Assembly: GCA_937127435.1 (NCBI GenBank)
Contig: CAKZLZ010000186.1
Coordinates: 1-64,000, forward strand
Length of the DNA: 64,000 bases
Direction of reading: 5' to 3'
DNA from: an uncultured Verrucomicrobiota bacterium
Lineage (GTDB): Bacteria; Verrucomicrobiota; Kiritimatiellia; SS1-B-03-39; UBA6053
How positions within the stretch are numbered: the stretch's first letter is position 1; each line of letters starts with the position of its first letter. A program made the translations under genes and the position numbers. Below the pieces are notes generated by a model that searched no databases, was not told the DNA's origin, and saw only the letters and a list, made by a program, of their open reading frames with translations. Below are positions 11,422 through 49,407 of this stretch, piece after piece.

Positions 11422-11729
11422 TGGGTTGCTGGACCGCGGGACGCGGGCCCTCCTGTTAGGACCGACTGTGTCTCCCTGGCCGTCGCGAGCGACAGCTCGG
11501 GCAGGCGCAGTCGTGAGGGTGGGTTGCTGGACCGCGGGACGCGGGCCCTCCGTAAGGACCGACTGCGTCCCCCTGGCCGTCGCGAGCGACAGCTCGGGCA
11601 GGCGCAGTCGTGAGGGTGGGTTGTTGGACCGCGGGACGCGGGCCCTCCGTAAGGACCGACTGCGTCCCCCTGGCCGTCGCGAGCGACAGCTCGGGCAGGC
11701 ACAGTCGTGAGGGTGGGTTGTTGGAGTCC
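11422..11729. repeat. 97-98 bp tandem direct repeat, three copies plus a fragment
   Basis: Three near-identical units begin at 11422, 11520 and 11617, with a truncated fourth from 11714. Each contains the small palindromes CCGCGGGACGCGG and CGTCGCGAGCGACAG. The first unit has one extra base near its GGACC motif. The array fills the space between the convergent VWA and lacZ genes (11406-11734), and no gene is seen in it. Confidence 0.92.
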
Positions 11730-11734
11730 GGGGC

Positions 11735-14776
<3,042 letters not shown>

Positions 14777-22900: not shown

Positions 22901-23113
22901 CAGAATCTCCGGAAAAGTGAAGGGCTGGAAGTTTCCGACCGCATTCAAGTACGCTTCCGGGGATCGGAAGTGGTGCAGGCCGCCGTTTCCGAACATCGGG
23001 AATTCATCATGGCCGAAATTCTGGCGTTGGTCTTCGATTTCGATGCCGACCTCGAAGCGGAAGTGCTGGAACTCAACGGCGAAGAAGCGGCTTTTGTGAT
23101 TGTGAAGAATTAA
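19988..23113 (+). CDS. ileS: Isoleucyl-tRNA synthetase, eukaryote-like type
   Basis: Charges tRNA-Ile. The ATG at 19988 gives 1041 residues. The HIGH motif appears as PHYGHL (54-59) and the KMSKS motif as KMSKR (595-599). FYDGPPFATGLPHYGH and RFGWDCHGLPIE are typical of the eukaryote-like IleRS branch, which is found in scattered bacteria and is generally associated with mupirocin tolerance. The CP1 editing domain (TTPWTLPAN, GTGIVHMAPAYGEDDY) is present. The C-terminal anticodon-binding region has no evident zinc-binding cysteine set. The 190-bp leader has a hairpin near 19891-19918 but no convincing T-box. Confidence 0.96.
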   Translation: MFDPVSNKIDFPRNEEEMLAFWEAQGIFQKSLDQRADNEEFVFYDGPPFATGLPHYGHLLAGTIKDIVPRYQTMRGKYVERRFGWDCHGLPIEALAQDDLGLAGTTAIVEAGVDVFNEKCRSMVQTYVNEWRKTVTRMGRWVDFDNDYKTMDTDFMESIWWVFQQLWDKGRIYKAHRIMPYSWKLTTPLSNFEANRNYKDVQDPAITCRFKLKDETLFGAQAHFLAWTTTPWTLPANLALCVGPEIDYVAVQDLSDDTIYVMAEARLASYFPKADAYKLLKTVKGAELEGQGYEPLFNYFTDHENSFRVLTDDFVSTGDGTGIVHMAPAYGEDDYRICRDAGIELVDPLDAEACFTSKVPDFAGQLCKDADKGIIRALKDAGKLVHQSTIQHSYPFCERTDTPLIYRAIEAWYVKVDDLRDKMQTLNNQVHWTPEYVGSKRFGNWLADANDWNISRNRFWGSCIPVWVSEDGEDSICMGSIEELEKYSGVKVDDLHKHVLDKVVFEKDGKTYRRTPEVLDCWFESGAMPYAQQHFPFENAEGFENRYPADFIAEGLDQTRGWFYTLMVLGTILFEKPAFKNVVVNGLVLAEDGQKMSKRLKNYPDPMKVIDQYGADAIRLYMIYSPVVRAENLAFAEDGVKQIMRDLLIPMWNAYSFFVTYANTDGWEPSAKGDKSENLLDRWILSSLEKLSEDVTAAMDDYDLQSAVRPFVHFIEDLTNWYIRRSRRRFWKSEDDDDKHQAYQTLYSVLLTLSKIGAPFVPFITESIYRNLRTEEMPESVHLCDFPHFAGKHRDPDLDKQMAVVQTVVQLGRSLRSEYDLKVRMPLKGIHVATRDMSLKQNIDELKHLVMEELNVKEVWFGEDETALATYSAKPNFKTLGPKLGKKIKLCAASVAKLDTEEITAILGGKTHSVDLDGEAFEMSADDLLISRNPREGLAVASEGQIVVALETGLTPELEQEGLARELVSRLQNLRKSEGLEVSDRIQVRFRGSEVVQAAVSEHREFIMAEILALVFDFDADLEAEVLELNGEEAAFVIVKN

Positions 23114-23118
23114 ACGGA

Positions 23119-23450
23119 TCTAATACGCCGGAATTCCGGGTTTATATTCCGTCGGAGTCCCGAGTTTAAATTAAGCCGGAGTCCCGGGTTTGAATTAAGC
23201 CGGAGTTCCGCGTTTATATTACGCCGGAGTCCCGCGTTTACGCGGAAGTGACAAGGGGCGTTTACGACCCGGTTTCAGAACCCGTGCGCATCGCAACCCC
23301 GGCACCCAAGTCCTAAAGGCCTCGGGCTGACTTCCGCATAAATGCGGGACTCCGGCGTATTTACCCAAGTCCTAAAGGCCTCGGGCTGACTTCCGCGTAA
23401 ACGCGGGACTCCGGCGTAATTTAAACCCGGGACTCCGGCGTCGTGTAAAT
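23119..23450. repeat. RAYT-associated repeat cluster, left of the transposase
   Basis: Four tandem 24-bp units (consensus begins ACGCCGGAGTCCCGCGTTTA) at about 23123-23218 run into a hairpin cassette. The cassette opens with GCCGGAGTCCCGCGTTTACG, continues through a core with GGGGCGTTTACGACCCGG, and closes with the inverse of its first 29 bases. A partial second closing arm follows near 23365-23425. The same sequences lie on the far side of the transposase and at 26.1 and 31.1 kb. No gene is seen in 23114-23472. Confidence 0.93.
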
Positions 23451-23472
23451 ATTCCTATCTTTTTTCTCTTGC

Positions 23473-24105
23473 ATGGATTGTATACACATGAATACTTTAT
23501 ATATGTATGAATGGAGAAAGATTGAGCCCGAAGAGCGCAAGGCTTTATTAGAGGAGCGGCAGCGCTTAAACTGTTCCTGGCACCGACCTTCCCGCCAACA
23601 GCTGGGGGATTGGTGGCATATCACCGCGGCTTGTTATGAACACAAGCCGCTCATAGGCCTCACGCCTGAGCGAATGAATTCTTTTTCCCACGACCTGCTC
23701 GATTGTGTTTCGGCGGATAGTTTGGAAATAAGTGCGTGGTGTCTGCTGCCGAATCATTATCATCTATTGGTTCGGGTCATTGATGAAAAAATTCTTTCAA
23801 AATCATTGGGGAAACTTCATGGACGAACTTCACATGCCTGGAATGTTGAAGAGGGCCTGACCGGTCGAAAATGCTTTCATGGTTTATTACCCAAGCCGAT
23901 CAAAAGTCTGGAACATCGCTGGGCCACCCTGAATTATATTCATCATAACCCGGTGAAGCATGGGTACGTTGAAAAATGGCAGGATTGGCCCTATACCAGT
24001 GCACATGCCTATTTAAAAGAAATGGGAAAAGCGCAAGCGGCAAAGTTTTGGCGGGAGTATCCGGTTTTGGATATGGGCAAAGGCTGGGATGAGGAGAGGG
24101 GGTAA
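23473..24105 (+). CDS. REP-associated tyrosine transposase (RAYT, Y1 HUH family)
   Basis: A single-strand DNA transposase related to IS200/IS605 TnpA, usually present as one domesticated copy that acts on REP sequences. It has 210 residues. The HUH motif is H95-Y-H97 in LLPNHYHLLV, and the likely catalytic tyrosine is Y155 in LNYIHHNPVKHGYV. WWHITAACY in the N-terminal strand is also typical. The gene sits between two arrays of the same hairpin repeats, the arrangement known as a REPtron. No accessory tnpB is present and no terminal IS boundaries are seen. It separates ileS from hemE, so it is probably an insertion between housekeeping genes. Confidence 0.93.
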   Translation: MDCIHMNTLYMYEWRKIEPEERKALLEERQRLNCSWHRPSRQQLGDWWHITAACYEHKPLIGLTPERMNSFSHDLLDCVSADSLEISAWCLLPNHYHLLVRVIDEKILSKSLGKLHGRTSHAWNVEEGLTGRKCFHGLLPKPIKSLEHRWATLNYIHHNPVKHGYVEKWQDWPYTSAHAYLKEMGKAQAAKFWREYPVLDMGKGWDEERG

Positions 24106-24120
24106 ATGTCGGAGTTCAGA

Positions 24121-24400
24121 GTTTAAACTAAGCCGGAGTCCCGCGTTTATATTCCGCCGGAGTCCTAGGTTTATATTACGCCGGAGTCCCGGGTTTATAT
24201 TCCGCCGGAGTCCCGCGTTTACGCGGAAGTAACAAGGGGCGTTTACGACCCGGTTTCAGAACCCGTGCGCATCGCAACCCCGGCACCCAAGTCCTAAAGG
24301 CCTCGGGCTGACTTCCGCGTAAACGCGGGACTCCGGCGCAGTTTAAACCCGGGACTCCGGCCTGTTTCAACTCCGGCGCAGTTGAAACCCGTTGCGCCGT
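24121..24400. repeat. RAYT-associated repeat cluster, right of the transposase
   Basis: Four 24-bp units (about 24129-24224) lead into a complete hairpin cassette with the same orientation and core as on the left side, followed by degraded units up to about 24400. The last units are less conserved, consistent with decay towards hemE. No gene is seen in 24106-24448. Confidence 0.92.
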
Positions 24401-24448: not shown

Positions 24449-25489
24449 ATGAAGGCCATGACCCAATCCGACCCCATCAATGACTGTTTTTTGAAAGCCT
24501 GCCGAGGCGAAGCTGTATCCCGCACCCCTGTTTGGCTGATGCGTCAGGCCGGACGCTATATGGCTGAATACCGTAAGATGCGGGAGACCTATCCGATTCT
24601 GGAGATGATGAAAAGTCCGGAACGGGCGGCGGAAGTGACCATGCAGCCGGTGCGGGCTTTCGATATCGATGCGGCCATCATTTTTGCGGATATCCTCACC
24701 TTGCTCGAACCCATGGGCCTGAATCTGGAGTTTATTCCCGGGCGCGGACCGGTTTTTCATAATCCGGTAAGGGACAAAGCGGATGTCCTCGCTCTGAAAA
24801 CGGTGGATCCCCACAAGCAAATTGATTTTACCCTCGATGCCATCCGCCTCTCCCGTGAACTTCTGCAAAACAAAATTCCCCTGATCGGATTTTCAGGCGC
24901 GCCCTTTACGCTGGCCTGTTATGCGGTGCAGGGGGGAGGCAGCAAAGATTTTGATGAGGTCCGTGCTTGGATGTATAGCGATCCCGCCCGCTGGTCTGAT
25001 TTAATGGACCGGTTGACCGATGCGGTGACCGAATACCTGCTCGCCCAAATTGATGCCGGCGCCCAGGCCCTGCAGTTGTTCGATAGTTGGGCCGGTTGCC
25101 TGTCGGTAGCAGATTACGAACGCTTCGCCGGACCCTGGACCCGCAAAATCTTTTCCGCATTGGCAGGGAAGGTTCCCACCATTCACTTCTCCGCCAACGG
25201 TGGACATTTACTTGAACAAATTGCGGACATGCCGGTTTCCGTGATTGGACTCGATTGGCGGGTGAGCCCGGCCCAGGTGATGTCCCGCATCGGCACGGAC
25301 CGGGTGTATCAAGGGAATCTGGATCCCGCCCGCCTGCTGGCATCCGACGAAGCAGCGCTCTCCGGTGCTGCCGAAGTTTTAAAAGCCCTCAAACCTGCAA
25401 AGGGTCACATTTTCAATTTAGGACATGGGGTTATCAAAACCACGCCGCCTGAACGGGTGAAACTTTTGGTGGATGCGGTGCACGCCTAA
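24449..25489 (+). CDS. hemE: Uroporphyrinogen decarboxylase
   Basis: Removes four carboxyl groups from uroporphyrinogen III to give coproporphyrinogen III in haem synthesis. Length 346 from the ATG at 24449; a second in-frame ATG lies three codons on. The active-site loop LMRQAGRYMAEYR carries R32 and R36, the catalytic Asp is D81 in IIFADIL, and GAPFTLACY and GHGVIKTTPPE are the other conserved stretches. Other haem genes are not adjacent. It ends 32 bp before rlmH on the same strand. Confidence 0.97.
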   Translation: MKAMTQSDPINDCFLKACRGEAVSRTPVWLMRQAGRYMAEYRKMRETYPILEMMKSPERAAEVTMQPVRAFDIDAAIIFADILTLLEPMGLNLEFIPGRGPVFHNPVRDKADVLALKTVDPHKQIDFTLDAIRLSRELLQNKIPLIGFSGAPFTLACYAVQGGGSKDFDEVRAWMYSDPARWSDLMDRLTDAVTEYLLAQIDAGAQALQLFDSWAGCLSVADYERFAGPWTRKIFSALAGKVPTIHFSANGGHLLEQIADMPVSVIGLDWRVSPAQVMSRIGTDRVYQGNLDPARLLASDEAALSGAAEVLKALKPAKGHIFNLGHGVIKTTPPERVKLLVDAVHA

Positions 25490-25950: not shown

Positions 25951-26075
25951 CACAGACATTCCTGTCTGTGATCGAGAGCGGTTCAACCGCGCTCGCAAAA
26001 AGGATTGAAAGGAGAGGTTGGGGGTTGCTGTCGCGGCTTGCCGCGACAGATCACAGACAGGAATGTCTGTGTTAC
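25947..26075. repeat. Foldback repeat with 27-bp perfect arms after rlmH
   Basis: The arm at 25947-25973 recurs inverted at 26049-26075. Each arm is itself a hairpin around ACAGACATTCCTGTCTGT. Between them lie two further hairpins: GAGAGCGGTT pairing with AACCGCGCTC (one mismatch) around 25974-25995, and CTGTCGCGG pairing with CCGCGACAG near 26027-26048. The rlmH stop is inside the left arm. The same core recurs in the tandem array at 48994. Confidence 0.92.
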
Positions 26076-26115
26076 GTCTTTTTCTTCTTCCCGAAGCGGT
26101 GTCCTTCGCCTTTTA

Positions 26116-26354
26116 ACTACGCCGGAGTCCCGCGTTTGAATTACGCCGGAGTCCCGCGTTTACGCGGAAGTCAGCCCGACGCCCTTCAGGGCTCGGGTGC
26201 TACAAACCAAATCAAACACAGGCAAAGCGAATACGCTCAGGTTCTGAAACCGGGTCGTGAACGCCCCTTGTCACTTCCGCGTAAACGCGGGACTCCGGCG
26301 TAATTTAAACCCGGCGCTCCGGCGTAATTCAAACCCGACTCGCCGGTTTAAATC
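26116..26354. repeat. RAYT-family hairpin cassette with inverted core
   Basis: One and a half 24-bp units lead into the usual 29-bp arm (from about 26140), and a matching closing arm ends near 26301, followed by two variant units. The core between the arms reads in the opposite direction from the cassettes at 23.2, 24.2 and 31.2 kb, with the GACAAGGGGCGTT side now next to the right arm. It lies between the convergent rlmH and plsY genes; no gene is seen in 25951-26358. Confidence 0.9.
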
Positions 26355-26358
26355 TGGC

Positions 26359-26991
26359 TTACAAATCCCCGTTCGCTTTCTTCTTCCCGAAGCGGTGTTC
26401 TTCACCCTTTAATAATCGCTGGATATTTGTGCGGTGCCGATAGACGGCGACCAGCCCCAGGGCTGTGAGGATGCCATCAATCACGAGGCTTTGCGGGGGA
26501 AGAAACCAAGTCGAGACGGCTATCGCAACGGCAGCCAAAATGGAACTCAGGGAAACGATGCGGCTGAGGACCATAGACAATCCCCAAGTGACGGCTGCCA
26601 CCAGGATGCACCAGGGAGCGACAGCCACGATCACGCCGGCGGAAGTGGCGATGCCTTTTCCGCCTTTGAATTTTAACCACACCGGGAAATTGTGTCCGAT
26701 GATCGCAAAGGCGCCGGCCAACAAGGGGAGGTTGGGGTGGGCCTGTAAATCGGCCGCAGTCAAAAACAGCAGGGGAAAAATCCAAGAGCTGACCAGGCCT
26801 TTCAGGAAATCAAAAAAGAAACAGAGCAGGCCCCATTTTTTTTCCACCATGCGGAAAACGTTGGTGGCCCCGATGTTGCCACTTCCCTGGGTGCGGATGT
26901 CCACTCCCTGAGTGCGACTGATAAGTAATCCAAAGGGAATAGAGCCTAAGAGATAGGAGATAACTAATAAAAGTAGAATGGGGATTTGCAT
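26359..26991 (-). CDS. plsY: Glycerol-3-phosphate acyltransferase (acyl-phosphate dependent)
   Basis: Transfers an acyl group from acyl-phosphate to glycerol 3-phosphate, the first step of phospholipid synthesis. It is a 210-residue integral membrane protein with about five helices. The three PlsY motifs are visible: GSIPFGLLIS, GSGNIGATNVFR and GHNFPVWLKFKGGKGIATSAG. The C-terminus is basic. It is a single gene facing away from the AT-rich island and convergent with the rlmH side. Confidence 0.96.
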   Translation of the reverse strand: MQIPILLLLVISYLLGSIPFGLLISRTQGVDIRTQGSGNIGATNVFRMVEKKWGLLCFFFDFLKGLVSSWIFPLLFLTAADLQAHPNLPLLAGAFAIIGHNFPVWLKFKGGKGIATSAGVIVAVAPWCILVAAVTWGLSMVLSRIVSLSSILAAVAIAVSTWFLPPQSLVIDGILTALGLVAVYRHRTNIQRLLKGEEHRFGKKKANGDL

Positions 26992-30934: not shown

Positions 30935-31080
30935 GGTATGAAGGTAGAGGTCAGGAGGAGGCATTCAGGAAATCAGGTAGGATCCTTGTTTACAGTGGTT
31001 TAAGGAGATAAGAAGGTCAATCCCTTAGATACAGGATTCTGTATGGCGGAGGGGAAGTTACAAATTTGCGGGATTTATAA

Positions 31081-31345
31081 TGGGCCGGAGTTCAGGGTTT
31101 AAACTACGCTGGAGTTCCGCGTTTAAATTACGCCGGAGTTCCGGGTTTAAATTACGCCGGAGTTCCGCGTTTACGCGGAAGTATAAAGGGGCGTTTACGA
31201 CCCGGTTTCAGAACCCCTGCGCATCGCAACCCCGGCACCCAAGTCCTAAAGGCCTCGGGCTGGCTTCCGCGTAAACGCGGGACTCTGGCGTAATCTAAAC
31301 GCGGGACTCCGGCGTAATTTATCCGGCGTAATTTAAACTTAGGAC
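31081..31345. repeat. RAYT-family hairpin cassette and 24-bp units
   Basis: Three to four 24-bp units (from about 31083) are followed by a hairpin cassette with the same core and orientation as those flanking the transposase, then two partial units. It occupies most of the 413 bp between the unknown protein gene and the end of punA. No gene is seen in 30935-31347. Confidence 0.9.
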
Positions 31346-48993: not shown

Positions 48994-49380
48994 GTCACAG
49001 ACAAGAATGTCTGTGTCACGTTAATTTTTGGAAGCGGGTGGGGTTGAAATGGGATGCTCCGCACACCCCGCAAGCGAGGTGCTTGGTGAAGACGGTTGGC
49101 CGCCACGCAAGTGAGGTGGTTTTGGACGTCACAGACAGGAATGTCTGTGTCACGTTAATTTTTGGAAGCAGGTGGGGGCGAGATGGGATACTCCTCACAC
49201 CCCGCAATCTAGGTGCTTGGTGAAGACGGTTGGCCGGCACGCAAGTGAGGTGGTTTTGGACGTCACAGACAGGAATGTCTGTGTCACGTTATTTTGGGGA
49301 AGCGGGTGGGGGCGAGATGGGATACCCCGCAAGCGAGGTGCTTGGTGAAGACGATTGGCCGGCACGCAAGCCTGGTTTTT
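48994..49380. repeat. 134-bp tandem repeat, three copies, with ACAGACAGGAATGTCTGT cores
   Basis: Units start at 48994, 49128 and 49262, exactly 134 bp apart; the third is shortened. Each starts with the palindromic core GTCACAGACAGGAATGTCTG (first copy has one change) and continues through GAAGCAGGTGGGGGCGAGATGGG-type and GCTTGGTGAAGACGGTTGGC segments. The core matches the foldback arms at 25947 and 26049. Nothing else is seen in 48758-49407: the 236 bp after cfa hold no gene. Confidence 0.93.
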
Positions 49381-49407
49381 TGGTCTGAGACTTCTTTCTT
49401 TTGACCG

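Follow-up and report, generated by a model that had tools for sequence, protein, structure and literature searches.

The window, a stretch of 64,000 nucleotides, carries a gene for a RAYT (TnpAREP) protein flanked on both sides by REP repeats that also occur dispersed in the genome. The locus is very probably a REPtron, in which a domesticated HUH/Tyr single-strand transposase is kept between its cognate REPs and non-autonomous REPINs are scattered elsewhere. We favour this RAYT/REP reading, which the original prediction had also reached, because protein homology and predicted fold, covariation in the hairpins and the association of RAYT genes across the clade with one hairpin format all agree. 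Coordinates are collected in Table 1.

Table 1. Features of the RAYT locus and related repeats in the window
Feature	Position	Strand	Remarks
RAYT / TnpAREP gene	23473..24105	+	210-aa ORF
HUH motif N-H-Y-H, metal-binding histidines	23752..23763	+	NHYH
Catalytic tyrosine of YIHHNP	23935..23937	+	position set by alignment with 4er8
Four in-phase 24-bp armless-REP units	23126..23221	+	tag, 5' arm, loop, then WATTA-like; no 3' arm
Upstream REPIN, 136 bp	23222..23357	.	REP (+), hairpin GGGGCG-TTTA-CGACCC, hairpin TCC-TAAA-GGC, inverted REP; tags outward
Duplicated right half with third REP (inverted)	23363..23416	-	
Inverted armless-REP unit, RAYT-proximal side	23417..23440	-	
Three in-phase armless-REP units 3' of RAYT	24131..24202	+	
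Downstream REPIN, 136 bp	24203..24338	.	anatomy as upstream REPIN
Inverted armless-REP units	24339..24395	-	
26.1-kb cassette	26120..26324	.	REPIN 26144-26300, opposite orientation; one armless unit each side
31.1-kb cassette	31083..31314	.	REPIN 31155-31290; armless units: three left, one right

The start conserved in the family is Met 23488 or 23503, not the ORF start at 23473; residue numbers here are counted from 23485. In an alignment with 18 relatives, N90, H91, H93 and Y151 are invariant, and Y92 is replaced by Trp in three. The protein matches the NCBIfam model REP_Tyr_transpos (E 7e-21) with 74.7 bits, below the curated cut-off of 80, and its sole Pfam match, Y1_Tnp, scores 20.6 against a cut-off of 23. 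A sequence search of the PDB returned a single match, the E. coli TnpAREP–REP complex (4er8, E 7e-8). An AlphaFold2 model built with the 18 relatives has a mean pLDDT of 82.6; in a fold search with this model, 4er8 ranked top (E 9e-9, 22% identity), followed by the ISDra2 and IS608 transposases. The HUH motif, a single Tyr in a Y---NP motif and the predicted Y1 fold are those of a RAYT/TnpAREP protein.

The RAYT gene is bordered on one side by a gene ending at 23113 and on the other by a gene starting at 24449, which we take, from their protein sequences, to be ileS and hemE, respectively. Among the genomes checked, a RAYT adjoins ileS in only two species, those of the source genome and of Kiritimatiellaeota B1221. 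Codon substitutions relative to the B1221 orthologue show purifying selection on the gene (dN/dS 0.083; 0.060 for ileS). The original prediction described a single-copy Y1/HUH transposase at 23473–24105 between two repeat clusters, and the HYH motif, the tyrosine and the clusters are all borne out. Single copy holds for this gene itself, but the genome also contains a paralogue, the nearest at 57%, with repeats of its own, and other RAYT-like genes. That second RAYT (locus L002, G000 contig C111, 20712–24311) has a two-hairpin repeat, CCTGC-TTCA-GCAGG plus CCGCG-TTCA-CGCGG, copies of which were found, with the pattern used, only beside its gene. Genomes G000–G011 are rich in RAYT-like matches, with up to 21 stretches per genome matching NF047646.

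The REP core reads CGCC-nGAG-TY-CCGCn-TTYA-nGCGG. When up to three mismatches are allowed, the 5.2-Mb genome has 37 sites for this pattern and none for a reversed control pattern. Thirty-five genome copies align into a sharp-edged block, GCCnGAGTYCCGCnTTYAnGCGGMAGY, in which the nGAG tag is followed, two bases on, by the 5' arm of a 5-bp stem, then by the TTYA loop and the return arm. All 35 copies keep the variable position of the stem paired (G-C in 26, T-A in 6, A-T in 3), these having been picked by a pattern that fixed the remaining stem and the loop and left this pair free. In place of the canonical GTAG (or GTGG) tag, the REPs of the source genome carry nGAG; the repeat is a REP whose tag deviates from GTAG. 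Most of the dispersed copies take the form of REPINs, in which two REPs stand head to head with tags outward over about 125–157 bp end to end, and their interior holds two extra hairpins of the types GGGnCG-TTTA-CGnCCC and CCC-TAAA-GGG. Sampled copies appear intergenic and close to gene ends; one of 13 sampled sites lies wholly within ORFs (64 and 81 codons). The repeats are thus tagged palindromes, mainly intergenic and arranged in inverted pairs, as expected of REPs and REPINs.

Covariation identifies the constrained element. In an alignment of 18 REPINs from the source genome and B1221, pairing across the four local hairpins reaches 95.3% and both bases have changed at 9 pairs, a result matched by 0 of 500 shuffles. 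A single long REP-to-REP stem pairs well too, but its variable pair is broken in 5 of the 18, where both local stems are intact. Because the long stem fails at the variable pair where the local stems hold, we take the local REP hairpin as the constrained unit. The original prediction had proposed a cassette of 170–190 bp, made of a 24-bp tandem head and a hairpin with 29-bp arms. The unit found genome-wide is instead the smaller REPIN, 136 bp at the RAYT, and the tandem head is no part of it. The arms do exist, as two facing REPs, but as the constrained unit the long inverted arm fared worse than the local 5-bp hairpin in the covariation test and was rejected.

Another short palindrome, CCTGGCCG-(N)-CGGGCAGG, which measures about 29–35 bp and has a variable core, was seen at 11446–11736 of the window and on G000 contigs C179, C69, C155 and C87 (loci L032, L029, L022 and L017). 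It has 43 matches in the source genome and none in three congeners, and in several REPINs it lies inside the REP 5' arm, at the same spot between GAGTCC and CGCG.

The clusters on either side of the RAYT (23121–23449 and 24110–24395) share 89% identity over 234 nt, and their repeats are found again, as the original prediction had it, at 26.1 and 31.1 kb (26107–26341 and 31070–31345). Their 24-bp units are in phase with the REP and of equal length, with the 3' arm CGCGG changed to WATTA or a near form (CGCCGGAGTCCCGCGTTTA-WATTA); we refer to them as armless REPs. No armless REP can fold by itself, but units on the left pair with the inverted ones on the right. This left–right pairing explains why the two clusters, taken as single strands, fold far more strongly than shuffles (z −11.6 and −10.9). 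A genome-wide count, suggested along with the original prediction, places all 15 matches to the 24-bp unit on the RAYT contig, between 23.1 and 31.3 kb. Eight of the 11 armless REPs of B1221 are likewise on its RAYT contig (C113), two are on C73, and the remaining one is at the start of C106, the contig on which the C113 locus continues across the 26.1-kb cassette. The arrays probably arose by local amplification next to the RAYT; they could have formed locally as a side effect when the RAYT cuts close to its own gene, or be decoys that titrate the enzyme.

B1221 carries a cassette at the place matching the 26.1-kb cassette and has no cluster upstream of its RAYT. In the window, the 26.1-kb cassette is bracketed by a 36-bp direct repeat (92%; 26081–26116 and 26377–26412) that corresponds to the end of the next gene (26359–26991, minus strand). 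We considered this repeat as a target duplication and dropped the idea, B1221 having the cassette there without the duplicate. A lone TCACAGACAGGAATGTCTGTGTCACGTT palindrome lies at 26051–26083, just left of the same cassette, and a 134-bp tandem repeat of about three copies at 48994–49381 is built on TCACAGACAGGAATGTCTGTGTCACGTT.

Relatives of the RAYT are found in Kiritimatiellota, Verrucomicrobiota and Acidobacteriota, and in MAGs labelled as other phyla. Their flanking hairpins share the format nnAGTnC-stem-TTYA, with stems that differ but stay complementary. Even paralogues of a single genome can carry variants of their own, such as CCACG-TTTA-CGTGG at the RAYT on B1221 contig C77 and the two-hairpin repeat on contig C111 of the source genome. 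Within 350 bp of 28 clade RAYTs (18.8 kb) there are 91 sites of this format, whereas 105 kb of more distant flank holds 12, a 43-fold enrichment; 9 of those 12 lie in cassettes of the same repeat family in B1221. At 29 loci of RAYTs that belong to other subclasses, taken from these genomes, the format does not occur. Eight RAYTs of the group form one clade (support 100/99) with mainly nGAG tags, and several relatives outside it have GTAG; relatives with a GTAG tag are L041, L042, L044, L049, L050 and L064.

Cassettes might have been equally common in relatives without a RAYT, a possibility raised with the original prediction; the outcome is mixed, in that REPs track the enzyme but three relatives have REPs and no clade RAYT. 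At least five CCGCn-class REPs are present in 7 of 9 genomes with a clade RAYT versus 4 of 49 without (58 genomes; Fisher p 3e-5, with genomes treated as unrelated). A generalised pattern was used across genomes; the strict pattern misses relatives with different stems. Among the points against the REPtron reading are the nGAG tag in place of GTAG and the three REP-bearing relatives without a clade RAYT. The latter, G005, G009 and G011, contain 22, 17 and 15 CCGCn-class REPs, and a profile search found no clade RAYT in them; these genomes are drafts, so either loss or an assembly gap may be the cause. G002, a single-contig genome, has neither REPs nor a clade RAYT. Downstream of its ileS (L161, 2400–2900) lies a further pair of inverted hairpins whose loop is TTTA (GTAGCTGCCGGCGTTTACGCC).

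Comparison of orthologous sites in congeners shows turnover between filled and empty states. The C179 site measures 302 bp in the source genome versus 66 bp in B1221, and the C76 site 168 bp versus 26 bp in G002; four REP sites are filled in both the source genome and B1221. Exact insertion junctions, and hence the cut position, are unreadable at the empty sites, where the intergenic flanks are too diverged.

In the mechanism we propose, a REP strand that becomes single-stranded, for example on the lagging strand, would form the 5-bp hairpin with its TTYA loop behind the nGAG-TY tag. The RAYT would recognise tag and loop and use Tyr151 to cut next to the hairpin, the metal being held by the HUH histidines, and the ends would then be rejoined. 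Cleavage and rejoining would move or copy the REPIN into intergenic positions elsewhere. Binding and cleavage of the repeats, choice of strand and mobilisation are attributed to the RAYT by inference. A fixed TTYA loop combined with a relaxed tag would, by analogy, resemble the group 3 mode of recognition.

Three other accounts of the locus were weighed. The long inverted pairing between the two clusters would suit a composite or IS-like element, in which the RAYT and its flanking clusters move jointly and the clusters serve as terminal inverted repeats (a TIRtron); TIRYT genes with flanking TIRs have already been published (PMC3733652). We nonetheless consider this very unlikely, given that the RAYT is single-copy with its nearest paralogue at 57%, that it sits at the ileS–hemE locus in both species that have it and is under purifying selection, that B1221 lacks the upstream cluster, and that the repeats are dispersed without the gene and have REP features. 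A relic is an unlikely but less remote explanation: the present repeats would derive from another or a lost RAYT, and the RAYT would be kept for a different role on single-stranded DNA. The three relatives with REPs and no clade RAYT would fit it, as would the many RAYT-like genes in these genomes. Against it, different clade RAYTs have their own flanking stem variants, which fits working pairs, and other RAYT subclasses have no such hairpin format nearby.

It is most improbable that the repeats serve the host as regulatory or structural hairpins, such as terminators or mRNA stabilisers, and lie beside the RAYT by chance. In favour of this account, REPs are known to be co-opted into such roles, and sampled copies are apparently intergenic and near gene ends; against it stand the enrichment at clade RAYTs in several phyla, the absence of the format at other subclasses, and differences between congeners in whether a repeat is present.

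Under the REPtron reading, the clade offers many natural RAYT–REP pairs in which stems vary while the loop and AGT are fixed, a ready panel for specificity. RAYT biochemistry in the literature consulted is limited to proteobacterial enzymes. The half-REP arrays beside the RAYT may be a trace left by the reaction, and filled and empty sites between congeners represent a turnover that could be timed.

The suggestion that this is an undescribed Verrucomicrobiota type was too strong. Published REPs and RAYTs exist from Opitutus terrae, itself a verrucomicrobium, and from Rhodopirellula baltica, and tags that are degenerate in some REP families, as well as dimers with outside tags, are described types (PMC3733652). 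An HYH-type, REP-flanked TnpAREP subclass, 2.8, has kin outside Cyanobacteria in other phyla (Quentin et al. 2018, PMC6006769). Our literature search found no paper on REPs in Kiritimatiellota, and the nGAG tag, the REPIN with four hairpins and the arrays of armless REPs next to the RAYT were not found in the literature consulted; what is new thus appears to be a variant with these three features. It is conceivable, though rather doubtful, that the RAYTs of Kiritimatiellota, Verrucomicrobiota, Acidobacteriota and the MAGs labelled as other phyla form a distinct REP–RAYT lineage that reads (n)nAGTnC-stem-TTYA and in which in-phase armless-REP arrays accumulate beside the RAYT.

Among known systems, the RAYT appears closest to TnpAREP subclass 2.8, with which it shares HYH, a YIH-NP tyrosine motif, a proline-containing N-terminal stretch, a length of about 199 aa and REP flanks (PMC6006769). 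In a motif comparison, HYH and length were found in the RAYT, and the proline motif in most relatives. The subclass differs in its W motif, W[YH], where the RAYT has CFHG and most distant relatives have WH, in its Y motif (YIHYNP rather than YIHHNP), and in its long, GT[AG]G-tagged REPs, whereas those of the source genome have a 5-bp stem two bases from nGAG. The E. coli REPtron (subclass 2.2, group 2; 4er8) likewise has an HUH/Tyr core, a tagged hairpin, REP plus inverted-REP pairs and a single gene, but differs in DHLH and YIHYNP (subclass consensus), 165 aa, a strict GTAG and a long, bulged stem; its enzyme cuts single-stranded REP at CT and requires GTAG, whereas enzymes of group 3 accept altered tags and recognise bases in the loop (PMC8266576).

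The REPINs of Pseudomonas and Stenotrophomonas (group 3, subclass 2.5) are also inverted pairs of short, perfect-stem REPs, and share with the source genome that loop bases matter and that the tag is, in some, 1–2 nt from the stem; they have a GTAG tag and other loops, whereas source-genome pairs hold two more hairpins. The Opitutus terrae GTAG repeats are verrucomicrobial tagged palindromes with dimers and degenerate tags (GTGG), but belong to other sequence families and lie in many cases within genes (PMC3733652). Unlike an IS200/IS605 element, whose transposase exists in several near-identical copies that move with their ends, the RAYT has its nearest copy at 57% and occupies the same ileS–hemE locus in two species. 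TIRYTs (TIRtrons, mostly subclass 2.1) similarly place a RAYT-like gene between inverted repeats, in Acidobacteria too (PMC3733652), but their TIRs do not have the REP format of tag and hairpin, and a C-terminal HTH-like domain is present in proteins of subclass 2.1, whereas the RAYT described here has flanks with REP structure and Y1_Tnp as the only domain found by Pfam.
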